DNA from: Alphaproteobacteria bacterium
GTDB lineage: Bacteria > Pseudomonadota > Alphaproteobacteria > Reyranellales > Reyranellaceae
DNA length: 64,000 nucleotides
Assembly (NCBI GenBank): GCA_019635875.1
Contig: JAHBYP010000002.1
Coordinates: 496,001 to 560,000, forward strand
Direction: 5' to 3'
The notes beneath the pieces were generated by a model, which ran no database searches, was not told the origin of the DNA, and worked only from the letters and a program-made list of their open reading frames with translations. Positions 21,677 through 50,975 of this stretch are shown here, one piece after another (positions within the stretch are counted from its first letter, which is position 1; every line of letters starts with the position of its first letter). Position numbers and translations under genes: made by a program.

Positions 21677-21946
21677 ATGGCTCTGCTGCAGCGCAATCCC
21701 GACATGACCGTCACGACGATGGAGGACGGCACCTTCGTCGTCGATCCGGCGACGCAGGCGATCTTCTATCTCGACACCCTGGCGGGCGGCGTATGGACCG
21801 CGCTCGCCGAGCCGATGAGCGCGGCCGATCTCGAGGCGCTACTGATCGATGCGTTCCCCGATCTGCCGCGCGAGACCATCGCCGCCGACCTTGCCGCCCT
21901 GCTGCGGACCATGGCCGAGCGCGGCCTGCTGCTCACGACGGGCTGA
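21677..21946 (+). CDS. PqqD-like protein (RiPP-recognition-element fold)
   Basis: 89 residues in the winged-helix PqqD size class: NPDMTVTTMEDGTFVVDPATQ, then FYLDTLAGGVWTALAEPMSA, then a helical C-terminus (IAADLAALLRTMAERGLL). PqqD-like domains bind leader peptides in RiPP pathways, but some accompany HprK-like kinases and nucleotidyltransferases without any RiPP enzyme. A TTG at 21635 is an alternative start overlapping the kinase gene. The end overlaps the converging nucleotidyltransferase gene by 14 bp. Confidence 0.72.
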   Translation: MALLQRNPDMTVTTMEDGTFVVDPATQAIFYLDTLAGGVWTALAEPMSAADLEALLIDAFPDLPRETIAADLAALLRTMAERGLLLTTG

Positions 21947-23021: not shown

Positions 23022-23132
23022 CCCGGATCATCCCTGCGTCGCCAGAGGCCCCCGTCAAATGACGCGCCATTGCCCGTATGTTACAGTGACACCTTAACAT
23101 ACCGACGCCACCGGAGCGGGTTCCGACCCGAG

Positions 23133-25292
23133 ATGACCAACCTCGTCTTTTGGCTGCTGATCGCGACGGTGGCGATCGCACCCCTGCCCTTCGCCTCGAA
23201 CCGGCCGCTGCCCTGGAGCGTGCTGTCGGCGATCGTCGCCGTGCTGCTGGTGCTGTGGGGCGTCGACCGCATCCGTGCCGTCCTGCGGGGCGGCGCGACG
23301 GTCATGATGCCGTCCTCGGCCTCGACCGACGGGCCGCCACCGCCCGCACCGGCGGCAGTGGTGATCGACCGCATCGCCCTGGTGTTCGCGGCCGTCTTCG
23401 GCGCGCTCATCGTCTGGTACTGGTTCCAGACCTCGCCGGCCAGCGCGGGGCTGGCGCATCCCGCCTGGGCCGAGGCGGCCCGCGCGCTGGGTGAGCCGCT
23501 CAATGGTGCCATCGCGCTCGATCCCGGCGTCGGCGCGCACCAGGCAATGAAGCTTCTGGCCTATGGCGGCGTGTTCTTCCTCGCATTCATGCTCTGCCGC
23601 GACCGCCAGCGCGCGCGTTGGGCTTTCATCGTGCTCGCCGCCGTCGGGCTGGCCTATGCCGCCTATGGCCTGTTCGCGATGTTCGCCGGCTACAAGACGA
23701 TCCTCGGCATCGTGCCCTCGGCCTATTCGCGCAGCGTCACCTCGACCTTCATCAACCGCAACTCCTACGCAACCTATGGCGGGCTCTGCGTCATCATCGC
23801 CATGGCGCCGCTGCTGTCGGAGCTGCGCCGCGTGATGCGCAGCGGCACCTCGCCGATCGCCATGCTGCGCACGGTGTCGGAGGAAGCCACCCCGGTCTTC
23901 TACATCTCGGCGCTGGCGATCGCGACCGGTGTCATGGCGGTGATCCTCACCGGCTCGCGCGCCGGGGTCGCCAGCCTGCTGCTGGGCTTCGCCGTGTTCG
24001 GGGTGGGCATGCTGATCGTGCGCATCCTCAGTCTGCGCGCCTTCCTGGCGCTGATCGGCGCCGGCGGCCTATTCGTGGCGGCGGCGCTGGTGATCAGCGG
24101 CGGCTTCCTCGCCGAACGCGTCAGCGACGGCATGGAGCACGACGCGCGCTGGGTGCTGTTCGAAATCGGCCGCCAGGTCGCCGGCGAGCGGCCGATGGTC
24201 GGCCACGGGCTGGGCGGCTTCCCGGCGGCATTCAACGGCGCGCTGCACGCCCCGCCCGGGTTCGACGCCTATGTCGACTTCGCGCACAATTCCTATCTCG
24301 AGCTCGCCGTCGAGGGCGGCATCCCGGCCCTGCTGATCAGCCTGGCGCTGGCCGGCATGGCCGTGGGCATCTGCGTCACAGCCCTGTTCTCGTGCTCTCG
24401 CGGCACCAGCTTCGCGATCGCCGCCATAGCCGGCGCGGCGCTGATCGCCGGCCACTCGATGGTCGACTTCTCGCTGCAGATGCCGGCGGTGGCGGTGACC
24501 TTCATGCTGATGCTGGGCGTCGCCTCGGCGCAGTCGCTGGCCTCGGAGCGCGTCGGCCGCGAGGTTTCGGCAACCGAGACCGAGCCGGCGCCCGAACAGC
24601 CGCGCAAGAAGCGGCGGCGCCGGCGCCGCGGCAGCGATCGGCCGGCCTTTGCCGACGATTCGGTGACGCCACCGCCGGAGTTCGACCTGCCCTGGATGCG
24701 GCCAGGCGCCGCCGCCACCAGCGTGCCGCGGGAGTTCGTCACACCCGCGCCCCAGGTGCCGCTGGCACTGGAGCGCGGCTCGACAGGGCTGTCGGATGTC
24801 CTGCCCGACGCGCTGCACCGCCAGCCCGAACCGCGCGAAGGATCGCTGGGACCGATGTTCTCCCCTGCCGCCAGGCACTGGGGCGATGCCGACGGCGTTG
24901 CGCCCAAGCGCGAGACCACGGTGGCGCAGGACGAGGCCGTCGCCGCCGATGGCGGCACCGAGTCCTACAAGGCCGCGCTGGCGCGCTGGCAGAGCCTGCG
25001 TCAGGCCGCCGCCACGCCGGCTCGCCCGGTGACGACGCCGACACCGCCGGATCAACCGACCCCGCCCGAGGTGTGGACCGGCCTGGGCACCACGCCGCCA
25101 GCCGACGACCTCGCCCACGCCGCGACCGAGGAATTGCCGCCGATCGTCGATGCCACTGCGCCGCAGCCGCCAATGCCGCCGGCCTGGCCGGGCGAAGCAC
25201 GGCAGCCAGGTGCCGAGTCCGCGCCGCCGCAGGACACGCCCGACGATCCGCCGGGCAACGTCGTGCGTCTGCCGCTTTCGCGCCGGCCGTAG
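23133..25292 (+). CDS. O-antigen ligase family membrane protein with long C-terminal tail
   Basis: 719 residues. Residues 1-480 have about twelve hydrophobic segments and the Wzy_C/O-antigen ligase motif in the large periplasmic loop (MVGHGLGGFPAAFN, then FAHNSYLELAVEGGIPALL), with SRSVTSTFINRNSYATYGGL before it. Members ligate or polymerise lipid-linked glycans. Residues about 490-719 are unusual: a basic stretch (KKRRRRRR) followed by a proline-rich, low-complexity, probably disordered tail. ATG 23133 was chosen because the hydrophobic N-terminus begins there. Its neighbours are hldE and gmhA, consistent with LPS assembly. Confidence 0.85.
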   Translation: MTNLVFWLLIATVAIAPLPFASNRPLPWSVLSAIVAVLLVLWGVDRIRAVLRGGATVMMPSSASTDGPPPPAPAAVVIDRIALVFAAVFGALIVWYWFQTSPASAGLAHPAWAEAARALGEPLNGAIALDPGVGAHQAMKLLAYGGVFFLAFMLCRDRQRARWAFIVLAAVGLAYAAYGLFAMFAGYKTILGIVPSAYSRSVTSTFINRNSYATYGGLCVIIAMAPLLSELRRVMRSGTSPIAMLRTVSEEATPVFYISALAIATGVMAVILTGSRAGVASLLLGFAVFGVGMLIVRILSLRAFLALIGAGGLFVAAALVISGGFLAERVSDGMEHDARWVLFEIGRQVAGERPMVGHGLGGFPAAFNGALHAPPGFDAYVDFAHNSYLELAVEGGIPALLISLALAGMAVGICVTALFSCSRGTSFAIAAIAGAALIAGHSMVDFSLQMPAVAVTFMLMLGVASAQSLASERVGREVSATETEPAPEQPRKKRRRRRRGSDRPAFADDSVTPPPEFDLPWMRPGAAATSVPREFVTPAPQVPLALERGSTGLSDVLPDALHRQPEPREGSLGPMFSPAARHWGDADGVAPKRETTVAQDEAVAADGGTESYKAALARWQSLRQAAATPARPVTTPTPPDQPTPPEVWTGLGTTPPADDLAHAATEELPPIVDATAPQPPMPPAWPGEARQPGAESAPPQDTPDDPPGNVVRLPLSRRP

Positions 25293-28151: not shown

Positions 28152-28307
28152 GTCCCTTCCCCGATACGCGCGGCGGCACCTTGCCGATGGCCAGCCATCA
28201 CGTCCAGCCGGCCAGTGGCACAGTCGTCATGTTTCTGATAGAATTCTTACTAATCTGCATGGGCACGGCGGTGGACGCCGCCGTTGGTCAATCCCGGAAC
28301 GCCGAGA

Positions 28308-29909
28308 ATGACGTCGGACCGTCGCTTCGCATGGGCGTGGCTTGCCGCCCTGGCTGGATTCCTCGTCGTGTCGCTCTGCGGCGCAGCGTTGCAGGCGCGC
28401 GAGGTGCGCATCGCGCTGGTGATCGGCAACAGCGCCTACAGCAATGCCGAGGTCCTGAAGAATCCCGTGAACGACGCAAGGGCGATGGCCACGGCGCTGA
28501 CGGCGGCCGGCTTCGAGGTCATCCTGCGCGAGAACGCCACGCGCCGCGCCTTCGTCGAGGCGCTGCATGAGTTCGCCGGCAAGGTGCCGCCGGGCGGCGT
28601 GGGCCTGTTCTATTTCGCCGGACATGGCCTGCAGGTGCGCGGCGTCAACTACCTGCTGCCGGTCGACGTAGCACTCGCCAACGAATACGACCTCAAATAC
28701 GAGTCGATCGACGTCAACGACGTGCTCGATCGCCTCGAGGAGTCGCGCGCCCGGCTTAGCCTCGTGGTGCTCGACGCCTGCCGCAACAATCCCTTCACCC
28801 GCCGCTTCCGCGCGACGACGCGCGGCCTGGCGCAGACCGACGCGCCGCGCGGCACGGTGATCGCCTACGCCACCGCACCTGGCGACACCGCCGCCGATGG
28901 CGACGGCGACAACGGCGTCTACACGGCGGAGCTGCTCAAGGCCATGGCCGTGCCCGGCTTGACGCTCGAGGAAGTCTTCAAGCGCACCATCGACGGCGTT
29001 GCCGCGGCGACCGCGAGCAAGCAGACGCCCTGGGTGAGTTCCTCGTTCCGGGGCGACTTCTACTTCCACCCCGCGGCGGCGGCCGCGACCAACACCGCCC
29101 CGGGCGCCGCGCCGTCTGCCGCATCGCCCGAGGCGCTCGAGCTGGCGGCGTGGAGCGCCATCGCCGGCAGCAGCAACCCGGCGATGTTCGAAGTCTTCCT
29201 CAAGCGCTTTCCCGATGGCGTCTACGCCGATTTCGCGCGCGCGCGGCTGACCGAGCTGCAGGCCGCGGCTGCCGCGCCCGCGCCGTCATCCGCCGCCACG
29301 GACGAGCAGCGGGAAATGGCGCTCAAGCTCAGCGAGCTCGATCGTCGCCGCATCCAGGCGGCGCTGACCACCCAGGGGTTCGACACCATGGGCACCGACG
29401 GCGTGCTGGGGCCGCGGTCGCGGCAGATGATCGCCAACTGGCAGCGCGCCCGCGCCGAGTCGCCGACCGGCTTCCTGACCGCGGCGCAGGCGGCGCTGCT
29501 GTCGAAGGACGGCGATGCCGCCCTGGACAGGCTCGAGGAGGAGCGGCGCAAGGCGGCACCGCAGATATCCTCCGTCGCGCCCGCCGGTCCGACGACCTCG
29601 TTCGAGGGCCGCTGGGCCGGCCAGGTCTGCCGCAACGACGCCTGCCGGCCGGCCAACATGCAGATCGCAAAGAACCGGCTGAGCGGCGTGGCTGTCGGCA
29701 AAGGCTCGCCACAGACGCTGGATGGCGCCATCGAGGCGGATGGCCAGGTGCGCATGCGCTACGCCGGAATCGCACCGCCCGGCACGCCGCGCGCCGGCAA
29801 TCCCTTCGACCACACGCTGACCGGCAGGATCGAGGGCGACACGCTGACGGCGAGTTCCAACTATCCCGGCGGCGTGACGTTTCGTCTGACGGCGCGCCGA
29901 CTGCCCTGA
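28308..29909 (+). CDS. Exported caspase-like protein (peptidase C14 family) with PG-binding-like domain
   Basis: 533 residues. Residues 1-30 are a signal peptide or membrane anchor. Residues 32-245 are a caspase-like p20 domain with the catalytic dyad H106 (FYFAGHGLQ) and C158 (VVLDACRNNPF), plus ALVIGNSAY and LKNPVNDARAMATAL. A Pro/Ala linker follows, then a peptidoglycan-binding-like repeat near residue 350 (RRIQAALTTQGFDTMGTDG). The C-terminal ~110 residues form an unassigned beta-rich domain with two cysteines (GQVCRNDACRPAN). Orthocaspases cut after basic residues; the substrate here is unknown. ATG 28308 fits the signal; a TTG start at 28284 is unlikely. Confidence 0.85.
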   Translation: MTSDRRFAWAWLAALAGFLVVSLCGAALQAREVRIALVIGNSAYSNAEVLKNPVNDARAMATALTAAGFEVILRENATRRAFVEALHEFAGKVPPGGVGLFYFAGHGLQVRGVNYLLPVDVALANEYDLKYESIDVNDVLDRLEESRARLSLVVLDACRNNPFTRRFRATTRGLAQTDAPRGTVIAYATAPGDTAADGDGDNGVYTAELLKAMAVPGLTLEEVFKRTIDGVAAATASKQTPWVSSSFRGDFYFHPAAAAATNTAPGAAPSAASPEALELAAWSAIAGSSNPAMFEVFLKRFPDGVYADFARARLTELQAAAAAPAPSSAATDEQREMALKLSELDRRRIQAALTTQGFDTMGTDGVLGPRSRQMIANWQRARAESPTGFLTAAQAALLSKDGDAALDRLEEERRKAAPQISSVAPAGPTTSFEGRWAGQVCRNDACRPANMQIAKNRLSGVAVGKGSPQTLDGAIEADGQVRMRYAGIAPPGTPRAGNPFDHTLTGRIEGDTLTASSNYPGGVTFRLTARRLP

Positions 29910-38386: not shown

Positions 38387-39475
38387 TCAACTCGGGCTGA
38401 GCGATGTCGGGCTCGACGGCTTGGGCGTGACCTCGCCAGTCGGTGTGCGCGTCTGCGTCACGCGGCCCGAGGGCAGCCCGGCCAGCGCGCGGTCAATCCT
38501 CTCTTGCTCCTGCAGGCAGATCGAGTCGGAAGCCACGGCACCCGGCGCAGCGGCGTCGAGCACGAAGGACGAGGGCTGGTCGGCCGGCTCGACGATCACG
38601 GCGCCGACCTCGATGCCGGCGGGGAAGCCGAGCGTCAGCTGGCCACGAGCGCTGTCGGTCTCGAAGACGATCGCCGGCGCGCTGCCTGGCAGCAGATTGG
38701 CCGCCGCTGTCGCCTCGGCACGGTCGCTGCCGCTCAGAACGCCGCGCTGCAGCCAGCGATTGGGCGCCACGCCCAGCACTTCGAGCACGCGGCCGTTGAC
38801 CTCGAGGCTCGCACCGAAGGGCAGGCGCATCGCCAGGGCGCGCTGCTGGGTCGAGCCGAGCAGGATGACGCGCAGACGACCCGGCGGCACCGGCGTCTTG
38901 AAGCCGCGCACCTCGTGCAGCGAGTCGCCGGTCAGTACATAGCCGTCCGCATAGCGCTCGCCGCGCGAGCCGCCCATCAGGCGGCCGTCGCCGGGCACGA
39001 TGGGGATGGCGCCCGCCGAGGGCTGGGTACCGCGCGGCTGGAAGTCGAAGGCCAGCGAGCCGGCCGGCACGTTCCAGCGCTTCACACCGGTGGCGGCGAT
39101 CGGATAGGCCGAGCAGACGTTGGTCCTCGCCATGCGTGCCACGTCGTGCGACGGCGACTGGGCCACGGACGCCGCGCCCAGCGTTTGGCGGCCGGTCTGG
39201 CATTCGCCATTGCGGCAGCGCTCGTCGATCGCCTCGAGCAGGCGGATCGCACGGTCGCGCGCGTGGGTGCGATTGCCGAAGGTCGGCGTGTGCTCGCCGC
39301 GGATGAATTCGTCGGCCTGCTGGCGCCAGCCGGCATCGTTGCGCGCCGCGCCCTCGACGATGTCGCGGATCTCGCCGTCCGCTGTCGCGGCAGCGATCTG
39401 CGGCGATTGCGCAGCAGCGTCGACAGCAACGGCGACAAGGGTGGAGCAGGCCAGGAAAAGGGCAGAGAATCGCAT
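38387..39475 (-). CDS. Exported protein of unknown family (paralogue 1)
   Basis: 362 residues with a signal peptide (MRFSALFLACSTLVAVAVDAAAQ). It is clearly paralogous to the protein at 41720-42787: shared blocks include CSAYPI, FDF, IPI-PGD, GDSL-VR-F, LPGSAPAIVFE, GAVIVEPADQPS and C-x4-ER-DR-LA-LP at the end. No known domain is recognised. Two late blocks look like a small beta domain. It sits last in a minus-strand group with Wza-like and beta-barrel proteins, suggesting a role in surface polysaccharide or protein export. ATG 39475 was chosen for the signal peptide. Confidence 0.75.
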   Translation of the reverse strand: MRFSALFLACSTLVAVAVDAAAQSPQIAAATADGEIRDIVEGAARNDAGWRQQADEFIRGEHTPTFGNRTHARDRAIRLLEAIDERCRNGECQTGRQTLGAASVAQSPSHDVARMARTNVCSAYPIAATGVKRWNVPAGSLAFDFQPRGTQPSAGAIPIVPGDGRLMGGSRGERYADGYVLTGDSLHEVRGFKTPVPPGRLRVILLGSTQQRALAMRLPFGASLEVNGRVLEVLGVAPNRWLQRGVLSGSDRAEATAAANLLPGSAPAIVFETDSARGQLTLGFPAGIEVGAVIVEPADQPSSFVLDAAAPGAVASDSICLQEQERIDRALAGLPSGRVTQTRTPTGEVTPKPSSPTSLSPS

Positions 39476-39633
39476 TTGGCTCAAAATTCACTTCAATATC
39501 AGGATTCATCTTATTGATTTTGCTGAGAAATTGCAATGTCATAGTCGTTGAACACAAAAGTCCTTATATTTCAGCGCACTATATCTCGACTCTTCATCCC
39601 TTGCGGCGATTCAGGGTCCGTTTCGGAGCGGCC

Positions 39634-39667
39634 AAAACGACAACGGGCCGGCAAACTGCCGGCCCGT
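39634..39667 (-). terminator. Rho-independent terminator after the Wza-like gene
   Basis: On the minus strand acgggccggca pairs with tgccggcccgt around a 3-nt loop (39643-39667), then ttgtcgtttt gives a U-rich tail. It lies just after the Wza-like stop (39692) and separates it from paralogue 1, which therefore probably has its own promoter in 39476-39633. Confidence 0.8.
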
Positions 39668-39691
39668 CGGTCGCGAAGGGGGTTGGATCGA

Positions 39692-40279
39692 TCAGAAGAA
39701 CTTGCGCGGGATGTCGACGGTATCGCCCGGCAGCAAGGGCGTGTCGGCCTTACCCTCGAGCTTCTCCCCGCCGCGGAAGATGATGGCGCTATCGACGCTG
39801 GCGCGACGCTCGTAGCCGCCGGCCATCGCGGCCGCACCGCGTACATCCAGGCCCGAGGCGAAAGGATAGCGGCCCGGCTGGCGGACCTGACCAAGCACGG
39901 TCACGGGCCGATAGCCCACGACCTGCACAGTCACCCTGGGTTCGCGCAGGATGCCCTGGGAGAACTTGGCGCGGATCTCGTCCTGCACCTCGCCGACCGT
40001 GCGGCCGGCCGCCGAGACCTCACCGATCAGCGCGACGACGATCTTGCCTCCGGCATCGACCTCAAGGTCGCCCCCGAGGTCGGATTGGCCCAGCACTACA
40101 ACCTTGACCTTGTCGCCGACTCCCAGCTTGTAATCCATGCCGCCGACCGCACCCAGCCTGTCGGGCGCGGGCTTGCCGGGGCCGCCGCCGCTCGAGGACT
40201 CGCACGCGCTCACCGCGAAAGCCACGAGGCCGCACAGCAACATTGTCAATAGAGGACGGAAGAAGCTTGTCACGATCAT
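39692..40279 (-). CDS. Polysaccharide export lipoprotein (Wza/GumB/ExoF-like)
   Basis: 195 residues. A lipoprotein signal ends in AFAVSAC (the lipobox cysteine). The mature protein has MDYKLGVGDKVKVVVLGQSDL (Poly_export domain start), GEVSAAGRTVGEVQDEIRAKF and the SLBB-like VTVLGQVRQPGRYPF, ending GDTVDIPRKFF. Such proteins form outer-membrane channels or periplasmic parts for exopolysaccharide export with a Wzc-like kinase. It is shorter than Wza (no C-terminal helix for the pore), more like GumB/ExoF. It follows the beta-barrel gene by 39 bp. Confidence 0.9.
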   Translation of the reverse strand: MIVTSFFRPLLTMLLCGLVAFAVSACESSSGGGPGKPAPDRLGAVGGMDYKLGVGDKVKVVVLGQSDLGGDLEVDAGGKIVVALIGEVSAAGRTVGEVQDEIRAKFSQGILREPRVTVQVVGYRPVTVLGQVRQPGRYPFASGLDVRGAAAMAGGYERRASVDSAIIFRGGEKLEGKADTPLLPGDTVDIPRKFF

Positions 40280-40318
40280 ACCATCCCACAGCGGTTCTCT
40301 ACTCCGCGCGGGACGGTA

Positions 40319-41716
40319 TCACAGTTGTCCGCCAAGCGTCAGCATGTAGCGGTTGTCGTTGTAGTTGAAGCCCGCAACGCTGGAGTTGCGGCGTTCGTGG
40401 ATATAGCGCGGCCCGACGAAGACCTGCGGAATGATGAAGTACTTCGCCCCGATGTCGAAGGTGTAATAGTTGTCGGTGCGCGTGAGCGGGCTGGCGTAGT
40501 CGTATTGCTGCCAGGCGAAGCCGGCGTCGAACAGCACCTCGTCGATCGGCAGGTAGCCGACGCGAAGCTGCACCCCGGTGTTGACGGCGTTGCCCGAGGC
40601 GACGCCGGCCAGCGCCGTGCGGTATTCAGTGACGCCGCGGCGGCCCTCCAGCTCGATCGAGATCGTGTCGGTCGGGTTCCAGTACAGGCGGGCGAGCGCC
40701 GACAGGCCGGAGATCGGCGCCAGGCGCGGATCGCTGAACTTGCGGCGGAAATAGCCGAGGCCAAGTTCCGCCGTGATCGTCTGCGTGATGTCGTAGGCGA
40801 CGCCGGCGCGAATGTCGAAGCCATGTGAATTGCGCTGGAAGCCGAAGGGATCGGTCTGCTGGTCGTAGCGCACCCACTGATACGACGGGTCGATGAATAC
40901 GGACAGTTCCGGCGTGATCTTGTAGCCGATACGGCCGCCGAACTCGAAGCTGTTGTAGTCCTGGTTGATGCCGCCGTCGCCCTGGACATACGTCACACGC
41001 TGGAAGCGCGGCCCGAAGCGGACGTAGAGCGGATCGCCGTTGTAGGTGACCGACAGGCCGGTGGTGAACTGATGCACCACCGAATTTATGCCCGGACCGA
41101 CCGAGCCCGGCTGGCCGCGGCCAAGCCGGATGCGCGCGAATTCGGCCTCGCCATTGACTGCCAGTTCATCATTGATGTCGAAGCGACCGCGCGCACCGAC
41201 CTGGAAGGCCTCGTAGTTCTCGCTGCTGTTGGAGGCCAGTCGCGCCAGCTCACCCAGGGCATAGAACTGAAAGGCGTGCTCGTCCCAATCGCTGTCGACG
41301 GTCACGCCGGGACGCACCCGGAACACAAAGTCGCTGACGCGATTGGTGTTCGTGCGGAAGATGTTGTCGTCGTATTCGACATCCAGGGCCAGGCGCGGAT
41401 GGACGATGAAGCTGCCGACCAGGAGACCCTCGAGCTGGTCGCTGCGCGGCCCGCGCAGCACCGAGGCCTCGCGCGCCGACAGTTCCTGGGCCCGACCCGC
41501 TGACGTGGTGCGGGCGCCGGGCGCCGTCGGCTGAGGCGTGCCGGGTCGCACGCCCGGTTGCGTAGCCGGCTGCGTGCCGGGCTGCGTCGTAGTGGTGGTG
41601 GTCGTCGTCTGCGCCACCGCAGTGGCGATCCACATCGCTGCCGCGAGGCCAAAGGCGACGGCTGCGGTGCCCGAGGTCATCGAAAGACCGCGCAAGAGCC
41701 GGGATGTCGAGCACAT
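40319..41716 (-). CDS. Outer-membrane beta-barrel protein, exopolysaccharide-associated
   Basis: 465 residues. A signal peptide (MTSGTAAVAFGLAAAMWIATAVAQ, from M13) is followed by a Thr/Gln/Pro linker (TTTTTTTQPG) and alternating-residue beta-strands typical of porin-like barrels from about residue 100 to 465: LALDVEYDDNIFRTN, FYALGELARLA, VRFGPRFQRVTY and YMLTLGGQL ending in Leu. Proteins of this outer-membrane family (BBP2-like) accompany polysaccharide export genes. It lies between paralogue 2 (3 bp) and the Wza-like gene (39 bp), all on one strand. Confidence 0.85.
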   Translation of the reverse strand: MCSTSRLLRGLSMTSGTAAVAFGLAAAMWIATAVAQTTTTTTTTQPGTQPATQPGVRPGTPQPTAPGARTTSAGRAQELSAREASVLRGPRSDQLEGLLVGSFIVHPRLALDVEYDDNIFRTNTNRVSDFVFRVRPGVTVDSDWDEHAFQFYALGELARLASNSSENYEAFQVGARGRFDINDELAVNGEAEFARIRLGRGQPGSVGPGINSVVHQFTTGLSVTYNGDPLYVRFGPRFQRVTYVQGDGGINQDYNSFEFGGRIGYKITPELSVFIDPSYQWVRYDQQTDPFGFQRNSHGFDIRAGVAYDITQTITAELGLGYFRRKFSDPRLAPISGLSALARLYWNPTDTISIELEGRRGVTEYRTALAGVASGNAVNTGVQLRVGYLPIDEVLFDAGFAWQQYDYASPLTRTDNYYTFDIGAKYFIIPQVFVGPRYIHERRNSSVAGFNYNDNRYMLTLGGQL

Positions 41717-41719
41717 GGC

Positions 41720-42787
41720 TTAGCTCTTGCTCACGGGCGGCGGAGGCGGCGGCGGGGGCGGCGGCGGCGGCACGTTGCGCGGCGGCGGCGCCGACTGCGG
41801 CAGGGCAGCCAGCTCGCGATCGAGCCTCTCGCGCTCGCGCAGGCAGGTATCATTGGACAGCACGCCGCTGCCGCGCGCCGTCGAATCGAGCACCAGCGTC
41901 GAGGGCAGGTTGGCCGGCTCGATCAGCACCGCGCCCAGCTCGGCGCCCTGCGGAAAGACAAGCTCGAGCACGCCCTGGGTATTCTCGACCTCGAAGATGA
42001 TCGAGGGTGCGCTGCCGGGCAGGATGTTGTTGGCGACGAAGACCTGGTCAGGCGTGCCGGTCGCCAGCGCGCCGCGAGGGATCCAGCGATCGGGACCGGC
42101 GGCGACGATGTCGTAGGGCAGGCCGTTGGCGGTCAACGTGCGCCCGAATGGCGAGGACAGCGCCTGCGCCAGAGGCCGCTTGCCGCTGATCAGCGAGACG
42201 CGCAGCAGGCCATTGGGCGCCGGCACGCGGAAGGAGCGCACGTCCAGCAGCGAGTCGCCGGAGGCTGGATAGGCGTCGTTATAGCGTACACCGCGCTCAC
42301 CGCCGGTGATGCGCGAGTCGCCCGGACGAATCGGGATCATGCCGGGATAGACCGGGGCGCGCGGCGGATCGAAATCGAACGCCTGGATGTTGCGCGGCAC
42401 CGTCCAGCGGCGGACGCAGACCGTGTCGATCGGATAGGCCGCGCAGACCGCGCCGCTGGCGATCTTGGCGACATCCTGCACGGCCGCTGCAAGACCGCCT
42501 GGGCCGCCGGGCGTGCCCGGGCTGCCCGCCGCGCCGCAGCCACCACTGCGGCAGCGCTCGTGCAAGGTCTTGATCAGCTGAACTGCACGGTCCGTGATCT
42601 GGGTCCGATCGCCCGCGCCAGTATTGCCGATCAGGTAGTCGCGGACCTGCGACCGCCAGTCGCCGTCATTGCGGGCGATGCGATCGACAAGCTGCGGTGA
42701 CTGCGCAGCAGCGGTACCGCACAGCAGAGCCGGCACCAGCAGCGCGGTGAGCCAACCCGGGAGAATGTGGCGGAAGGAGGTACCCAT
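41720..42787 (-). CDS. Exported protein of unknown family (paralogue 2)
   Basis: 355 residues with a signal peptide (MGTSFRHILPGWLTALLVPA, cut near AAAQ). Paralogous to 38387-39475 (same CAAYPI, FDF, IPI-PGD, GDSLLDVRSF, LPGSAPSIIFE, GAVLIEPANLPS blocks). An internal Gly/Pro insertion (AAGSPGTPGGPGG) and a C-terminal run of about twelve prolines (GGC-repeat DNA 41740-41790) differ. Its stop is 3 bp before the barrel gene, so it heads the minus-strand operon. No function assigned. Confidence 0.75.
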   Translation of the reverse strand: MGTSFRHILPGWLTALLVPALLCGTAAAQSPQLVDRIARNDGDWRSQVRDYLIGNTGAGDRTQITDRAVQLIKTLHERCRSGGCGAAGSPGTPGGPGGLAAAVQDVAKIASGAVCAAYPIDTVCVRRWTVPRNIQAFDFDPPRAPVYPGMIPIRPGDSRITGGERGVRYNDAYPASGDSLLDVRSFRVPAPNGLLRVSLISGKRPLAQALSSPFGRTLTANGLPYDIVAAGPDRWIPRGALATGTPDQVFVANNILPGSAPSIIFEVENTQGVLELVFPQGAELGAVLIEPANLPSTLVLDSTARGSGVLSNDTCLRERERLDRELAALPQSAPPPRNVPPPPPPPPPPPPVSKS

Positions 42788-43198
42788 GAAATCGCTTCCT
42801 GAAAATTCTTTTGGACAAAATTCGCCAAACGATTCCTAGTCCTTATAGCAAACCAGCATTCCGAGTAACACAGATTTTTGCACGTCGCGGTACGAGACCC
42901 TGAACGAAACGGGATCGATCGTCGAAAAATCGTCAATCTGACGTGATGCGCCTTCCGTCTGCGACTCCTCGTCGCGTTCAGTCGAAATCAGACCGTTCAT
43001 GCAGCTTCAGGGTGATTCCGCAGGCTATTGATATTAGACGGATTTCTTGCCACAATGGACTATTCGGCAATGGTCCCTGCGACAGGCGCATGGTACCGTG
43101 ACAGGAAGTTGCACGGATACCGGGAATAGCGCGGGCGCGCTGGTGGCCGGCACCGTTCGGTAGCCCGTCCCACCGCGTCGCTGAGGTTGCTTGCGCAT
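42788..43198. other. Intergenic region with divergent promoters, no gene seen
   Basis: 411 bp between the divergent paralogue 2 and the type I ABC transporter gene. The paralogue-side half is AT-richer (about 42790-42880). On the plus strand a weak sigma-70-like pair, ttgata (43028) and cacaat (43051) with 17-bp spacing, could drive the secretion operon. No significant open reading frame with a plausible start site is seen; those present are out-of-phase readings. The two operons probably share regulation through this region. Confidence 0.5.
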
Positions 43199-45481
43199 AT
43201 GGCTCCGCCTGACAGATCGCACGGCCATCCCCCGGACGCAGCAGATTCGGCGCAGCCGGTCAGCCCCGCGCCGGGCGAGCTGCCCGCGGCGGACCCGCGG
43301 CCGGGACGCCGCATCGATACCCTGCTGCGCTGCGTGCTTTATGTCGCCCAGCAGATGGGCCGCCCGGTCAGCGAGGCGGAACTGCGGGCGCTCTGCCCGA
43401 TCCCCGAGCACGGCCTCGACGAGCCGACCGTGCTCCTCGCCTGCTCCCGCCTCGGCTTCAAGGCAGCGCCGGTGACGACGGATGCCGCGACGCTCGCGCG
43501 TCTGCCGACGCCCTTCATTCTGGTCGGCCCCGGCAACGCGCCGTCGATGGTGGTGACCGCGCGCGACGGCGAGCACTTCACCGCTCTCGATGTCGTCGAG
43601 GGCAAGGTGCGCACGCTCGACGCGCGCACCATCGCCGGGCTCACCGGCCGGGCCATCGTGCTCAAGGAAGTGCCGCGCGAGGCACGCAGGCGCGACTGGA
43701 AGGCGCTGCTCTACGAGCGCGTCCGGCCGGTGCTGGGCGAGCTGCTGGTGTCGTCCTGCGCCATCAACATCCTGGCGCTGGCCACGCCGCTCTTCATGAT
43801 GGTGATCTTCAACAAGGTCATCGGCCAGGGCAGCCCCGACACGCTGGCGACGACGATGGTCGTGCTGATCGTCGGCATGTCCGTCGTCTACGCCTTCGAC
43901 ACCCTGTTGCGCATCCTCCGCGGCTACATCTCGAGCAACACCGGCGCGCGCATCGACGCGCTGATGTCGGGCGAGGTCGTGCGCCATCTCGTGCACCTGC
44001 CCTACCAGCATTTCGAGAAGACGCCATCGGGCGTGATCGCCGAGCGGCTGCGCCAGCTCGACACGCTGCGCGCCTTCTTCACCGGCCAGATGCCGGCCCT
44101 GATCATCGATCTGGGCTTCGTTTTCATCTATCTGACCGCGATCTACCTGATCAACACCATCATCGGCGTCTTCGTCACCCTGATGATCCCGGTGTTCATC
44201 GGCATCTCGCTGCTCACGCATCGCGCCCAGAAGCGCTACATCGACGAGAACTTCAACGCGCTGGCGGCCAAGGGCTCGGCGCTCAACGAGACCGTCAACA
44301 ACGCCGGCACGATCAAGGCGCTGGGACTGGAGAGCGAGATCGAGCGGCGCTGGCGCGAGCGCGTCGCGCGCTCGGCCTGGACCAGCTTCAAGGCCAACAA
44401 CCTGGCCAACGTCGTCGGCTCCTTCACCGGTGCGCTGCAGATGTTCGTCTCGCTGGGCGTCATCCTGATCGGCACCTGGGAGATCACCAATCAGCTGATG
44501 AGCATCGGCGCGCTGATCGCCGTCAACATGCTGGCCGGCCGCGCGCTGGCGCCGATGCGCCAGGTGATCTCGGCCTGGCATACGCTGCAGGCGGTGCGCG
44601 CCGCCTTCGCGCGCATCGACGAGATGATGCAGGTGGCGCCCGAGATCGAGCCCGGCCAGCTGGCGCCGATGCCGCCGCTGCAGGGCGAGATCGTCTTCGA
44701 GCGCGTCTCGTTCCGCTACGACGACGGCCCGCCGATCCTGCACGAGATCGACCTGCGCATCGAGCCCGGCACGGTGATCGGCATCATCGGCCCCTCGGGC
44801 TCGGGCAAGACGACGATCTCCAACCTGCTGCAGGGTCTCTACACGCCGACGTCGGGCCGCGTGCTGGTCGACCGCACCGACATCGCGCATATCTCGCCGG
44901 CGCAGTTGCGCGCGCAGACCGGTGCCGTGCCGCAGGACGTGCAGCTGTTCTCCGGCACGGTGCGCGAGAACATCGCCATGGGCGTCGCCGACAAGGATCC
45001 CGGTCGCATCGTCGCCGTCGCCAAGTTCGTCGGCGCCCACAACTTCATCCAGAAGCTGCCGCAGGGCTACAATACCGTGCTGAGCGAACGCGGCGGCGGC
45101 CTCTCGCAGGGCCAGAAGCAGCTGCTGTGCATCGCCCGCGCCCTTATCCGCAATCCCCGTATTATCGTGCTCGACGAGGCGACCAGCGCGCTCGATCCGG
45201 CGACCGAGGAGCAGCTGCTGCGCACGTTGCGCACCAACGCGCGCGGCCGCACCATCGTCATGGTCACGCACCGCCTGGCGCCGCTCGCCATCGCCGACAA
45301 GGTGGCGCTGGTGATCGACGGCCGCATCGAGCGCATCGGCCCACCGACCGAGGTGATGGCCTATGCCCGCATCCGCATGGCCGAGGCCAGCCGCGCCCAG
45401 CCCGGCGCCCCCTCGCCGATGAGCCCAGGCTCCAACGTCGCCAGCCTGGTCGCCAGCGGCGGCCCGCTGGCCGGCGGCTGA
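43199..45481 (+). CDS. Type I secretion ABC transporter (permease-ATPase fusion)
   Basis: 760 residues. Residues 40-160 resemble an inactive C39-like domain (no catalytic Cys is visible). Then six TM segments (residue 180-450) and the ATPase: Walker A GPSGSGKTT, variant signature LSQGQKQLL, Walker B RIIVLDEATSALD and the H-loop MVTHRLAP. Such HlyB/PrtD-type exporters move unfolded proteins through a HlyD-TolC path. It leads a plus-strand operon with the HlyD-like gene 13 bp downstream. The ATG at 43199 was chosen over TTG 43187; the exact start is uncertain. Confidence 0.9.
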   Translation: MAPPDRSHGHPPDAADSAQPVSPAPGELPAADPRPGRRIDTLLRCVLYVAQQMGRPVSEAELRALCPIPEHGLDEPTVLLACSRLGFKAAPVTTDAATLARLPTPFILVGPGNAPSMVVTARDGEHFTALDVVEGKVRTLDARTIAGLTGRAIVLKEVPREARRRDWKALLYERVRPVLGELLVSSCAINILALATPLFMMVIFNKVIGQGSPDTLATTMVVLIVGMSVVYAFDTLLRILRGYISSNTGARIDALMSGEVVRHLVHLPYQHFEKTPSGVIAERLRQLDTLRAFFTGQMPALIIDLGFVFIYLTAIYLINTIIGVFVTLMIPVFIGISLLTHRAQKRYIDENFNALAAKGSALNETVNNAGTIKALGLESEIERRWRERVARSAWTSFKANNLANVVGSFTGALQMFVSLGVILIGTWEITNQLMSIGALIAVNMLAGRALAPMRQVISAWHTLQAVRAAFARIDEMMQVAPEIEPGQLAPMPPLQGEIVFERVSFRYDDGPPILHEIDLRIEPGTVIGIIGPSGSGKTTISNLLQGLYTPTSGRVLVDRTDIAHISPAQLRAQTGAVPQDVQLFSGTVRENIAMGVADKDPGRIVAVAKFVGAHNFIQKLPQGYNTVLSERGGGLSQGQKQLLCIARALIRNPRIIVLDEATSALDPATEEQLLRTLRTNARGRTIVMVTHRLAPLAIADKVALVIDGRIERIGPPTEVMAYARIRMAEASRAQPGAPSPMSPGSNVASLVASGGPLAGG

Positions 45482-45494
45482 GGAGGATCGCGCG

Positions 45495-47015
45495 ATGGTC
45501 GAGGGCGCGAGACTGGCGAACGGGGCACGGCGGCCGACTCGCGACGAGCCGGATGGCGGCGCGCGCCAGGCGTCCCAGGCGCCCTCGGCTGCATCCGCCG
45601 CGCCGGCGAAGCCGGCGGAGAACGCGCTGGCCCGCGTCTTCGCCGAGGCCCGCCTGCCCGGCACGCCGCGCTCCAGGGTCGAGGATTTCCTGCCCGATAT
45701 CGAGGCGATCACCGAGCGCCGGCATTCGCCCTACATCAGCTGGACGATCTATGCCGTCGCCGGCTTCATCGCCGCGGCGATCCTGTGGATGACGGTCTCG
45801 ATGATCGATCAGGTGGCGACGGCTCCGGGCGTCATCAGGCCCGCCGGCAAGGCCAAGACCGTCAGCCATCCCGAAGGCGGGCGCGTGGCGCGCATCTTCG
45901 TCAAGGATGGCGATCAGGTTCGCCAGGGCCAAGAGCTGGTGGCGCTGGACGCCGATCAGGTCGACCAGGAGATCAGCAAGACGCGCACGGTCTATCTGAC
46001 GCTGTCCGGCGAGGTGGCGCGGCTCGAGGCGGAAACCGCCAGCCCGTCGACACCGCCGATCTTCCCGGCGGCACTGTCGGACGCCCCGGCGGTGATCGCC
46101 GATCAGCTCAATCTGTGGCGTGCGCGCCAGTCGGAGCTGCAGGCAAGGCGCACCGCGGCGGATTCGGTGATCGAGCAGACGCGCGCACGGGTCCTGTCGC
46201 TGCAGAACCGCATCAAGACCCTTGAGGAGACGGTGGCGATCCTGGCCCGGCGCGAGTCGGCGCTGCGCGGCCTGGTCGGCCAGCAATACTTCCCCGAGCT
46301 GCAGTACCTCGGCGTCAAGCGCGACCTCGTCATCGCCCAAGGCGAGCTCGCCTCGGCGCGCGAGGAGCTGAAGAGCGCCGAGCAGACTTTTGCCGAAGCG
46401 GCCGGGCGGCGTTCCATCGTCGACCGGGAATGGATGTCGGCGGCGCTCAAGCGGCTCGGCGAGGCGCGCGCCGAGCGCGACCGTGCGCTGGGCGGCGTGG
46501 AGCAACAGCTGGCCCTGAGGCGCAACCTGGTCCTGCGTGCGCCGATCGACGGCATCGTCAACGGCCTGCGGCTGACCAACCCCGGCCAGGCGGTGCGGCC
46601 CGGCGAACTCGTGGTCGGCGTCGTGCCCTCGGGCGAGGCTCGGCGCATCGAGGTCGAGATCCGGGTCACCAACGCCGATATCGGCCTGATCACACCCGGC
46701 CAACCCTGCACCGTGAAGCTGCAGACCTATGACTGGATCCGCCACGGCGCGCTGGCCTGCCAGGTCACGCATATCGCCGCCGACGCCACCGCGCCGGACC
46801 CGGCCGTCAACCCGCAGGCTGCGGCCACGACGCAACCTTATTTCGTCGTCCTGGCCTCGATTGACCGCGACTACCTGGGAGAGGACCCCAAGCGAAACCG
46901 GGTGACCCCCGGCATGACCGCGACCGTCGACCTGCACATAGGCCGCCGCTCGATCATGGGATACTTCACCGACCGGCTGTTCTCGACCGTCGGCGGCGCC
47001 CTGAAGGAGCGATGA
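45495..47015 (+). CDS. HlyD family type I secretion periplasmic adaptor
   Basis: 506 residues. A cytosolic N-terminus is followed by one TM at about residue 77-98 (SWTIYAVAGFIAAAILW), then the lipoyl-like domain (GVIRPAGKAKTVSHPEGGRV, FVKDGDQVRQGQELVALDADQ), coiled-coil helices about 160-340 and the beta domain ending in TPGMTATVDLHIGRRSIMGYF. It joins the ABC transporter to an outer-membrane channel. The aggagga site precedes its ATG. No TolC gene is in the window. Confidence 0.93.
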   Translation: MVEGARLANGARRPTRDEPDGGARQASQAPSAASAAPAKPAENALARVFAEARLPGTPRSRVEDFLPDIEAITERRHSPYISWTIYAVAGFIAAAILWMTVSMIDQVATAPGVIRPAGKAKTVSHPEGGRVARIFVKDGDQVRQGQELVALDADQVDQEISKTRTVYLTLSGEVARLEAETASPSTPPIFPAALSDAPAVIADQLNLWRARQSELQARRTAADSVIEQTRARVLSLQNRIKTLEETVAILARRESALRGLVGQQYFPELQYLGVKRDLVIAQGELASAREELKSAEQTFAEAAGRRSIVDREWMSAALKRLGEARAERDRALGGVEQQLALRRNLVLRAPIDGIVNGLRLTNPGQAVRPGELVVGVVPSGEARRIEVEIRVTNADIGLITPGQPCTVKLQTYDWIRHGALACQVTHIAADATAPDPAVNPQAAATTQPYFVVLASIDRDYLGEDPKRNRVTPGMTATVDLHIGRRSIMGYFTDRLFSTVGGALKER

Positions 47016-47208: not shown

Positions 47209-49464
47209 ATGGCGAACGTGACGCGCCTGCAAACGGCGTACAGCAACCTTCCCGTCGAAGCCCCGCCGTCTGTTTCGCAACAGCAGCCGCAGGGCGATCC
47301 CTCGCCGTCGGTATCGGTCCGCAACATCCTGGGCATGCTGCGGCGCCACAAGCTGCTCATCGGCGGCGTGGCGCTGATCGGCACCACCATCGCTTGGCTG
47401 ATCGCCAACCAGCTGACCCCGGTCTACCAGGCCCAGGCCGACATCGTGATCGAGGGCAGCACCGACACCTCGATCATCAACCCCAACCAGGGCGCCGGTC
47501 CCCTGGACGTCAACATGGAGGCCGAGGCGGCCAAGCTGAAGAGCGAGACCGCCGCGCGCATCTCGGTACGGGCGCTGAACCTGATCGAGCACCCGCTTTT
47601 CAACCCCGATCTCGCGCCGCCGCAGCAGGGCAAGTTCAAGGCGCTGTTCGCGCCGCTCCTGAAGCTGGTGGGCGCCGGTGGCGCCGCGCCGCCGTCGCGC
47701 CTGCCGCCCGAAGAGGTCCGCCGTCGCCTCGAGGCGATGCCGCCGGACCAGAAGGATCCGTTCTACAACCAGATCGCCGGCGCCTGGGCCGCCGGGCTGT
47801 CGACCGCGATCCCGATGTACTCGCGCGTGATGAGCGTGCGCTACCGTTCGTCCGATCCGCAGCTCGCCGCGCAGTCGGTGAACCAGGCGATCCGCACGTA
47901 CATGGATCAGCAGACATCCGACAAGAAGCAGGATGCGCTGGAGCTGATGCGCTTCCTCAGCACCCAGACCGAGACTGCGCGAAAGGCGGTGGTCGAGGCC
48001 GAGGGCAAGCTGGCCGAGTTCCGCGCCGCCAATCAGATCTACGACACCGGCGATGCCTCGACGCAGACCAGGCAGCTGATCGAGCTGCAGGCGCAGCTGC
48101 TGTCGGCCGAGAAGGAACTGCGCGAGAAGTCGGCGCGTGCCGACAACGGCATGCTGCCCAACGACACCACGCTGCTGGGCGAGCTGGCCAGCGCCGAGAA
48201 GCGCGTCGCCGAGCTTGGCGCGCAGCTCGGACCGACGCATCCCGCCATGGTCAGTGCCCGCCAGCAGCTGGGCGCCGTGCAGGCCCGCGTCAATGCCGAG
48301 CGCGGCCGCGTCATCGCCAACCAGCGCCGCGAGCTCGAAGCCACGCGCATCTCGGTCGACAAGCTGCGTACCGAGGTCACCCGCCTCGAGGAGCAGATCA
48401 AGCGCCAGACCGTGAACCTGGCTCAGCTGCGCACGCTGCAGACCGAGCTCGACACCCGCAAGCAGTACTACCAGGCGTTGCTGTCGCGCTTCCAGGAGGT
48501 CAGCCTCACCGGCCAGCAGCAGCGCAAGTCGATGGCGCGGCCGCTGAGCGATGCCGAGACTCCCAACTGGCCAGTGGCGCCGCGCAAGGACCTGATCGTG
48601 CTGATGGCCTTCGTCGCCTCGCTGGCGCTGGGCGTCGCGGTGGCCATCGTCATCGAGCTGATGGATTCCGGCTTCCGCTCGATCCACCAGCTCGAGCAGA
48701 TGACCGGCGTGGCCGCGCTGGGCATGGTGCCGTTCCAGTCCGGCCGCCTGCGGCGCAACGCCAAGCCGTGGATGAACATCGTCGACAAGCCGAACTCGGC
48801 CTACTCCGAGGCCTTGCGCACGATCCGAACCGGCATCCAGCTGTCCAGTGCCGACCACCCGCAGCGCACCGTCGTGGTCACCTCGTCGGTGCCTGGCGAG
48901 GGCAAGACGACGACCTCGCTGTCGCTTGCCGCCGCCTCGGCCGCGTCGGGCGCGCGCACGCTGCTGATCGACTGCGACCTGCGCCAGCCCTCGGCGCACA
49001 AGAACCTCGGCGTCGAGAACGAGGCCGGCCTGGCCGAGTTCCTCTCGGGCCAGCGCAACCTCGAGGAGCTGGTGCATGTCGAGCCGCGCACCGGCCTGTA
49101 CTACATCCTCGCCGGCAAGCGTCCGCCCTCGCCCACCGACCTCCTGGGCTCGCTGCGCATGCGCCGCCTGCTGCAGCAGCTGGGCGACGCCTTCGACCTC
49201 GTCGTGCTCGACACGCCGCCGGTGCTGGCGGTGTCCGATGCGCTGCTGCTGGTGCGCCAGGCCGATACGACGATCTTCGTCGTGCGCTGGGAGAAGACGC
49301 GGCGCGATATCGCCTCGACCGGCGTGAAGATGGTCTACGAGGCCGGCGCGCGCCTGTCGGGCATCGTGCTTACCCAGGTCGACCTGCGGCGCCACGCCCA
49401 GTACGATTACACCGACAGCGGCGTGTACTACTACCGCGGCTACAAGAAGTACTACGGCGAGTAG
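47209..49464 (+). CDS. Polysaccharide co-polymerase/tyrosine autokinase (Wzc/ExoP-like)
   Basis: 751 residues. The Wzz-type N-terminus has a TM at about 43-63 (HKLLIGGVALIGTTIAWLIA), long coiled coils (about 250-420) and a second TM near 465-485. The cytosolic BY-kinase has Walker A SSVPGEGKTTTS (~559), Walker A' TLLIDCDLRQPS and Walker B FDLVVLDTPPVL. The end is a Tyr cluster (YDYTDSGVYYYRGYKKYYGE), the autophosphorylation site. It controls chain length and export of a polysaccharide. The upstream gap 47016-47208 is AT-rich and likely holds its promoter. Confidence 0.95.
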   Translation: MANVTRLQTAYSNLPVEAPPSVSQQQPQGDPSPSVSVRNILGMLRRHKLLIGGVALIGTTIAWLIANQLTPVYQAQADIVIEGSTDTSIINPNQGAGPLDVNMEAEAAKLKSETAARISVRALNLIEHPLFNPDLAPPQQGKFKALFAPLLKLVGAGGAAPPSRLPPEEVRRRLEAMPPDQKDPFYNQIAGAWAAGLSTAIPMYSRVMSVRYRSSDPQLAAQSVNQAIRTYMDQQTSDKKQDALELMRFLSTQTETARKAVVEAEGKLAEFRAANQIYDTGDASTQTRQLIELQAQLLSAEKELREKSARADNGMLPNDTTLLGELASAEKRVAELGAQLGPTHPAMVSARQQLGAVQARVNAERGRVIANQRRELEATRISVDKLRTEVTRLEEQIKRQTVNLAQLRTLQTELDTRKQYYQALLSRFQEVSLTGQQQRKSMARPLSDAETPNWPVAPRKDLIVLMAFVASLALGVAVAIVIELMDSGFRSIHQLEQMTGVAALGMVPFQSGRLRRNAKPWMNIVDKPNSAYSEALRTIRTGIQLSSADHPQRTVVVTSSVPGEGKTTTSLSLAAASAASGARTLLIDCDLRQPSAHKNLGVENEAGLAEFLSGQRNLEELVHVEPRTGLYYILAGKRPPSPTDLLGSLRMRRLLQQLGDAFDLVVLDTPPVLAVSDALLLVRQADTTIFVVRWEKTRRDIASTGVKMVYEAGARLSGIVLTQVDLRRHAQYDYTDSGVYYYRGYKKYYGE

Positions 49465-49488: not shown

Positions 49489-50268
49489 ATGGCGATGCCC
49501 ACGAACCGTATCTCGCTGGTTTCCGACGTGCGGCCAGACAGCCGCGCGCGGCGCGGCCGGCGCGCCGGACCCGAGCATCTGCGCCACGCATTGTCGCTGC
49601 CGCTGGGCGTCATCGCCGTGGTCGGCGGCCTGGCGCTGGGCGCCATGGCGTTGCCGCACCTCTTCGCCGCCATCGCCGTGCTCCAGGCGCGACCGCTGGT
49701 CGAGCGTTATGTCGCCGGCGAGCGCGGCCTCAACCCCGTCAATATCGCGCAGGCCGCCGAGCGGCTGGAGTTCGCGCTCGACCTGGCGCCGGATGCCGAC
49801 TCGGCGCTGCTGCTGGCCGATCTGCGGCTCTGGCAGGCGCGGCGGGCCACGGACGTCACGATCATCGAGTCCCATGCCCGCCAAAGCGTCGATGCCGCCA
49901 GGATCGCGGTGCGCAGCGCGCCGGCCCATCCCGCGGCCTGGACGGCACTGGCCGAAGCCCTCGAGGTGCTGACCCTGGGCGATCCGTCGGTGATCGGCCC
50001 GCTGTCGCGCGCCCTCGAGGTAGCGCCCTACGACCCGAGACGACGCGACGCGCGCGTCGAGCTGGCCCTGCGCCACTGGCAGGCGCTGCCGGCGAAGGCG
50101 CAGCGCGCCGCCGGACCGCCGATCGTCGCCATGGCGCGGGCCGACATTGACGGGCTGGCCAGGCTCGCCAAGCGGAACCTCGGTCTGGGTGCCGTGCGCG
50201 GTGCGCTGGTCGACGATGCGGAGCTGGCGCGGCGCTTCGACGCCACCTATGTCGCGCTGCCTAATTGA
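49489..50268 (+). CDS. Membrane-anchored TPR-like protein
   Basis: 259 residues. One N-terminal TM (about residue 35-60, LSLPLGVIAVVGGLALGAMAL) follows a basic segment; the rest is helical and TPR-like (AAERLEFALDLAPDADSALLLADLRLW, AARIAVRSAPAHPAAWTALAEALE). Similar proteins occur after Wzc-like kinases in exopolysaccharide loci. It starts 24 bp after the kinase stop. Its end overlaps the converging SH3 gene by 8 bp. No specific function is assigned. Confidence 0.72.
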   Translation: MAMPTNRISLVSDVRPDSRARRGRRAGPEHLRHALSLPLGVIAVVGGLALGAMALPHLFAAIAVLQARPLVERYVAGERGLNPVNIAQAAERLEFALDLAPDADSALLLADLRLWQARRATDVTIIESHARQSVDAARIAVRSAPAHPAAWTALAEALEVLTLGDPSVIGPLSRALEVAPYDPRRRDARVELALRHWQALPAKAQRAAGPPIVAMARADIDGLARLAKRNLGLGAVRGALVDDAELARRFDATYVALPN

Positions 50269-50812
50269 CGACTTCGCCCCTGTAGACGCCCCAGACGTGG
50301 CGGCGCTCGATCCAGCCGATATGGCCGCTGGCCTGCACCCGGCACCAATCGCCCGAGCACGATCTCACCTGGGCGATGACCTCGACGCCCATGCGGGCGA
50401 CCATGGCGGCGTTGGGCGAGGGCGTCTTGCGCAGCGGCGCGTTGGCGGTCGTGACGATGATGTAACGCCTGCCGGTCAGCAGGCTCTGGTGCACCCAGCC
50501 GCCGGCGCCCTGCCAGTCGCGGATCTTGCGCCAGTTCTCGTACTCGCCGACGATCTCGATCGGCATGCTCCTGCGCTTGAACTCCCAGTCGATGGGATAG
50601 CGGACGCCGGGGCCGGTGCGCACGTTGGTCTGCTCGGCGCGCACGCTGGCGAAGCGCGGCACCGGCAGGCCGGTGCCCTTGCGCAGCGGCGGCGGGTGGG
50701 CGCCGCCCGACGTCGCGACGGCCTGGGCGAAGGCGGGAAGGCCGGCGATCGCCAATAGCGCCGACAGGGCCAAAGCCCATCCCGACCGTCTGAACCGCGC
50801 GCTACGCCTCAT
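50261..50812 (-). CDS. Exported SH3-domain protein
   Basis: 183 residues with a signal peptide (SGWALALSALLAIAGLPAFA). Two bacterial SH3-like motifs follow: SVRAEQTNVRTGPGVRYPIDWE with NWRKIRDWQGAGGWVHQSLL, and ANAPLRKTPSPNAAMVARM with GDWCRVQASGHIGWIERRHVWGVY. SH3b proteins usually bind peptidoglycan or act as periplasmic scaffolds. ATG 50812 is preferred since the signal peptide begins there; the 50848 start adds 12 residues. It overlaps the upstream gene's end by 8 bp. Confidence 0.88.
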   Translation of the reverse strand: MRRSARFRRSGWALALSALLAIAGLPAFAQAVATSGGAHPPPLRKGTGLPVPRFASVRAEQTNVRTGPGVRYPIDWEFKRRSMPIEIVGEYENWRKIRDWQGAGGWVHQSLLTGRRYIIVTTANAPLRKTPSPNAAMVARMGVEVIAQVRSCSGDWCRVQASGHIGWIERRHVWGVYRGEVVN

Positions 50813-50975
50813 CCGCAACTTATATCGCAGCGCCGGCTTTCCTTCCACCTGTCAAAGCCCGGATAAGAGGCGGATTCGGCATGGTTTTTGCGGATCGGCT
50901 GCGTCCGGGAGCCAAACTGGACAAGCTGCGCGGGGCTTTGCTATTGCCCCGCCTTCGGGGGTCGCTGGAGCCATC

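Follow-up and report, generated by a model that had tools for sequence, protein, structure and literature searches.

How does a growing polysaccharide pass from the periplasmic ring of an OPX (outer-membrane polysaccharide export) protein into an outer-membrane barrel? To our knowledge, this handover is unresolved for composite translocons, and it is the question raised by a locus of an alphaproteobacterium of the Reyranellaceae (64,000 nucleotides of contig JAHBYP010000002.1, the whole of which is called the window below), in which two similar exported proteins, P0002 and P0001, are encoded on either side of the genes for a BBP2_2 barrel and a short Wza-like OPX protein. We lean towards reading P0001 and P0002 as Sec-exported, disulphide-stabilised, accessory lectin-like subunits of a composite OPX/beta-barrel exopolysaccharide translocon, on the grounds of their paralogy, modelled fold, gene context, cysteine co-variation and tail conservation. 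Because the family recurs beside barrel and OPX genes and has a predicted carbohydrate-binding fold, it is a concrete candidate for the step from OPX protein to barrel in many alphaproteobacteria; its conserved C-terminal tail is an unusual feature.

The paralogous pair

The two genes and their parts are placed in the window as follows.

41720 to 42787, minus strand: P0002, first family copy (355 amino acids; signal sequence, helical N-terminal domain, predicted lectin-like beta-sandwich, C-terminal helix, proline-rich linker, tail VSKS)
41909 to 42397, minus strand: predicted malectin/CBM35-like beta-sandwich of P0002 (residues 131-293; from structure matches)
41723 to 41734, minus strand: C-terminal tail VSKS of P0002, which matches the family end S-x-[NS]
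38387 to 39475, minus strand: P0001, second family copy (362 amino acids; tail LSPS)
38579 to 39067, minus strand: predicted malectin/CBM35-like beta-sandwich of P0001 (residues 137-299; from structure matches)
38390 to 38401, minus strand: C-terminal tail LSPS of P0001

Both open reading frames (ORFs) are intact over these coordinates. When the whole genome was searched with P0002, no match was found besides P0002 itself and P0001 (42% identity over residues 17-352, E = 7e-78); since the two match only each other in their own genome, and at this E-value, chance resemblance is excluded and they are, as judged from their sequences, true paralogues. The original prediction had proposed the duplication from a series of shared blocks, all of which were recovered in the same order in both copies (AYPI, FDF, IPI-PGD, GDSL-VR-F, LPGSAP-I-FE, GAV(I/L)(V/I)EPA and C-x4-ER-DR-LA-LP), with the small correction that the block given as GAV-IEPA is GAVIVEPA in one protein and GAVLIEPA in its paralogue. 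Sec signals had likewise been claimed for both proteins, and each N-terminus does carry, by inspection, a Sec-type signal sequence ending in AAAQS.

The claim that these proteins have no recognised domain held for their sequences and gave way for their fold. No Pfam or NCBIfam model matched P0001 or P0002 beyond chance, and Pfam likewise gave no match for 14 members of the family core domain. Profile searches of the PDB returned nothing for an 11-member family profile and only chance matches to RhoG (E > 1) for a core-domain profile, and a plasmid search gave no match for P0002. The family is thus undescribed in the domain libraries and in the literature searched, a search whose coverage left most subscription literature outside. 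The structure models, in contrast, led for both proteins to carbohydrate-binding sandwiches.

Predicted fold, cysteine pair and C-terminal tail

AlphaFold2 models of P0002 and P0001, built from seven sequences, consist of a helical N-terminal domain, a beta-sandwich (about residues 131-293 in P0002), a C-terminal helix and a loose tail, and several blocks of the central strands reach a predicted local distance difference test (pLDDT) score of 80-93. The sandwich was best matched with the C-terminal domain of a Bacteroides beta-glucuronidase 2 (6d8g_A; Z = 11.6 for P0002 and 10.8 for P0001), the N-terminal domain of Bacillus YxiM (2o14; Z = 9.9 and 10.0) and human malectin (9ikp_A; Z = 9.3 and 8.4), further matches being plant malectin-like receptors and, at Z of about 7, CBM35. 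Foldseek gave E = 5e-5 for the P0002 model, and no match at E 0.001 was found in a library of viral structures. According to the comparison tool's own guide, Z values of 7-8 are typical of models without a clear match; the best values exceed this level, and the same families were recovered for both paralogues. The central part of both copies most likely has a malectin/CBM35-like carbohydrate-binding fold, which, because there is no Pfam sequence match, is assigned as a fold and not as family membership. The most conserved polar or aromatic residues of the core, D178, N221 and W235 of P0002, are candidate sugar contacts.

Among the solved relatives of this sandwich, attachment to a glycoside hydrolase or an esterase is frequent, and some members of the family carry fused FecR domains, a domain type known from envelope signalling, before, after or inside the sandwich. 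Both facts would suit a protein that modifies the polymer enzymatically, or that senses it and signals, with the sandwich as a targeting domain. We regard such a role as very unlikely: Pfam and NCBIfam find no catalytic or signalling domain in the stand-alone proteins, and these consist, apart from the sandwich, only of helices and a low-complexity tail. As to the fusions themselves (L numbers denote our loci), the FecR domain is apparently inserted within the lectin-like sandwich at L077:8325-10394, L083:101-1849 and L095:9185-11110, and long proteins encoded at L078:7232-9829 and L080:9193-11094, one at each, have FecR domains that either flank the family domain on both sides or precede it.

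In an alignment of 27 members, Cys115 and Cys315 (P0002 numbering) are both present in 16, both absent from 11 and never found singly. Thirteen of the 16 two-cysteine members come from one clade, so that few independent events are represented; the remaining three stand outside it. This pattern fits a disulphide between the beginning of the sandwich and the C-terminal helix. At the very C-terminus, S[PKRQG][NS] occurs in 23 of 41 members, as against none of 167 other cluster genes and 9 of 1885 background ORFs, and SP[NS] in 16 of the 41 members as against 2 of the 1885; the linker before this conserved end varies from poly-proline to acidic. In the tree the two copies fall in separate clades and are kept within the genus, the second copy in four genomes and the first in three, and single-copy relatives of another genus group with the first copy at modest support (83/75). 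The family genes at L065 and L094 are broken by a stop codon (TGA and TAG), and are possibly decayed copies or assembly errors.

The tail leads to a further explanation. In two distant relatives (L097:8885-10750 and L098:8787-10835), a C-terminal PEP-CTERM sorting motif, which scores exactly at the cut-off in one and below it in the other, stands where other members have the S-P-N tail. Together with the lectin-like fold, and with the type I secretion pair that often lies divergently beside family genes, this would agree with lectins of the surface or matrix, which would be released from the cell and keep exopolysaccharide at its surface, as Wzi does, rather than with periplasmic parts of a pore. 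It seems to us unlikely, since the proteins have their own Sec signal (by inspection), so that export through a type I system is not what one would expect first; moreover, no anchor, lipobox or barrel of their own is seen in family proteins, and the E. coli attachment protein Wzi is itself a barrel (PMC3791409).

Gene context and the proposed role

Between the two paralogues, and on the same strand as both, lie the following genes.

40319 to 41716, minus strand: BBP2_2 outer-membrane beta-barrel, candidate outer-membrane pore (Pfam PF10082, E = 9e-76)
39692 to 40279, minus strand: short Wza-like OPX lipoprotein of 195 amino acids (Poly_export and SLBB, E = 8e-19; no Wza_C)

The pair thus brackets same-strand export genes, as had been noted beforehand, and only 3 bases separate the end of P0002 from the start of the barrel gene. 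With an 11-row profile, the family was found in 33 of 385 alphaproteobacterial genomes and in 13 of 76 genomes of the order; the core profile found it in 6 of the 398 genomes of a phylum sample, all six in the same class. Forty loci were fetched and their ORFs tested with the window's own proteins as queries, which yielded 37 full-family copies; three are cut by contig ends, leaving 34 uncensored copies to be counted. Twenty-six of the 34 are in the same cluster of family gene, BBP2_2 barrel and short Wza-like OPX protein: 23 lie immediately upstream of a same-strand barrel gene that is followed by the OPX gene, and three are second copies just downstream of the OPX gene. A Wzy polymerase and a Wzc-like kinase are usual companions in these clusters; genes for an HprK-related kinase and an NTP_transf_5 protein are often present too, as is a divergently oriented type I ABC/HlyD pair. 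A divergent type I ABC transporter lies within about 2.2 kb of the family gene at 18 loci, the window included.

The recurrent link to barrel and OPX genes makes a component of polysaccharide export the likeliest role, and in this outline the original prediction (a component or assembly factor of the surface export machine) stands. We would picture the mechanism as follows. The barrel and the short OPX protein would together make up a composite pore in the outer membrane, comparable to EpsX/EpsY, and the family protein would remain in the periplasm, where its lectin-like domain may hold or guide the nascent polymer at the passage from OPX ring to barrel. The flexible C-terminal tail (S-P-N/S or similar) may be a docking element, for which the barrel or the OPX protein would be the simplest partner. 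The second copy would be a diverged, retained paralogue, whose target is probably another portion of the polymer or a different partner. A more specific proposal, possible if doubtful, is that alphaproteobacterial OPX/barrel translocons hold a third, undescribed kind of subunit, a periplasmic lectin whose sandwich binds the polymer as it emerges and which is tethered to the pore by its conserved C-terminal S-P-N/S peptide, with the pair of the genus providing two sugar specificities.

The assembly-factor part of the earlier claim fares worse. According to it, the proteins would assemble or stabilise the barrel or the OPX protein, and the sandwich would be a protein-protein module and not a lectin. 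The tight coupling with the barrel gene seen in the window agrees with this, a conserved C-terminal tail is suited to docking, and plant malectin-like domains do form protein interfaces (PMC6038381). However, most BBP2_2 barrels are found in genomes without the family, and the core domain has relatives within large proteins encoded at other loci, where a window-type barrel is missing; we judge this role quite unlikely.

Several observations weigh against an accessory lectin of the translocon as well. Whether homologues always occur beside BBP2-like barrels and Wza-like genes had been posed as a check; 8 of the 34 copies do not, so that a scattering without this context, which was to count against an export role, applies to a minority. 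Two of the eight, in Reyranellaceae, are near ABC-transporter genes (the annotated one also near molybdopterin oxidoreductase genes), three in one genus are near coaBC- and ubiB-type genes, two are the proteins with a PEP-CTERM motif, which have a sugar transferase and a mannose-1-phosphate enzyme encoded nearby, and one is on a short contig. BBP2_2 barrels, moreover, were found in 109 of the 385 genomes, as against 33 with the family; the pore does not generally need the family protein. Family members are also related to one another, and the context counts are not counts of independent events. The models have moderate overall confidence (predicted template modelling score 0.48 for P0002 and 0.46 for P0001), and a malectin fold alone does not prove sugar binding, the plant relatives being a warning: malectin-like ANXUR1 bound none of the oligosaccharides tested (PMC6038381). 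Finally, a periplasmic rather than a surface location is suggested solely by a Sec signal without an evident anchor.

Close orthologues of the window's barrel (E < 1e-80) occur in eight genomes of the order, all eight of which carry the family. The family protein accompanies a particular kind of barrel and is to be seen as accessory, because eight copies lie elsewhere and most BBP2_2 barrels do without it.

Neighbouring genes, distant relatives and comparison with known systems

Further polysaccharide and secretion genes lie on both sides of the pair, the last three of the following being about 13-18 kb away.

43187 to 45481, plus strand: type I secretion ABC transporter, divergent from the family gene (library match)
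45495 to 47015, plus strand: HlyD-type adaptor of the type I secretion system (TIGR01843, over the cut-off)
47209 to 49464, plus strand: Wzc-like chain-length determinant and tyrosine autokinase (TIGR01007, over the cut-off)
49489 to 50268, plus strand: VpsP-like polysaccharide biosynthesis protein (below the family cut-off)
22284 to 25292, plus strand: Wzy_C/O-antigen-ligase-type polymerase (true start probably inside the ORF; homologues near the family elsewhere)
21933 to 23021, minus strand: NTP_transf_5 nucleotidyltransferase (other genomes repeatedly have a homologue next to the family gene, in divergent orientation)
20722 to 21645, plus strand: HprK-related kinase (other genomes repeatedly have a homologue close to the family)

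A histidine kinase and response regulator pair adjoins P0001 (36212-38240), and its homologues are found near the family in several other alphaproteobacterial families. A bacterial SH3-domain protein is encoded at 50261-50848; homologues lie a few kb from the extra family copies in L075, L079 and L096, which are without a barrel cluster. A caspase-domain (Peptidase_C14) protein at 28284-29909 has a possible peptidoglycan-binding domain that scores below that family's cut-off. Elsewhere in the same genome (C10:94799-108621), a second BBP2_2 barrel is found about 12 kb from a Bac_transf sugar transferase; no family gene accompanies them, and they apparently mark a further polysaccharide locus.

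Proteins of about 790-1330 amino acids at L082, L099, L100, L101 and L102 contain distant relatives of the core domain and have no Pfam match; several adjoin Wza- or Wzc-like genes, and some distant relatives lie beside Wza-, Wzc- or glycosyltransferase-type genes. Plasmid searches returned mostly FecR domains in rhizobia with a FecR-fused relative, and only Plesiomonas with a barrel-type relative; the polysaccharide locus of a Plesiomonas shigelloides plasmid (L104:8761-11100) encodes a hypothetical protein with a distant relative of the core domain.

Among known systems, the XrtA/PEP-CTERM exopolysaccharide export genes resemble the window in that its OPX protein and barrel score weakly against their models, and membership was rejected (70.1 against a cut-off of 180 bits for TIGR03027, and 48.5 against 90.85 for TIGR03016). 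The sphingan gene clusters, considered as an analogue, were dropped, the literature search having given no useful text on their unknown genes. In Sphingomonas, the promonan cluster combines genes for a barrel and an OPX protein with one for a small hypothetical protein that is dispensable; its description mentions no family member. Malectin- and CBM35-type sandwiches share the predicted fold over about 110-140 aligned residues (Z from about 7 to 11.6). The family differs from them in having no sequence match in Pfam or the PDB, and in adding a helical N-terminal domain, a C-terminal helix with a co-varying cysteine, and a conserved tail. Wzi of the E. coli group 1 capsule, an outer-membrane lectin and attachment protein that is itself an 18-stranded barrel (PMC3791409), is likewise a lectin-type protein in a pathway of polysaccharide export and attachment, whereas the family proteins are predicted to be soluble sandwiches and have a barrel encoded separately beside them.

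The closest likeness is to the composite translocons (EpsY/EpsX of Myxococcus xanthus, VpsN/VpsM of Vibrio cholerae), which the consulted parts of two papers describe as a short OPX protein and an outer-membrane barrel (PMC9601211, PMC9603273), the short class being defined as at most 280 amino acids (PMC9601211). The window's OPX protein, at 195 amino acids, is within this limit, and its lack of a C-terminal helix is judged only by the missing Wza_C match. The barrel gene is to be sought within five genes of the OPX gene; here BBP2_2 is adjacent, as it is in other family loci, and the wider region holds a Wzy-type polymerase gene. By size, domains and adjacency, the two fit a composite translocon. 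In short, to a system described in those parts as OPX protein and barrel only, the window adds a third exported protein, predicted to be lectin-like and present twice in the genus.

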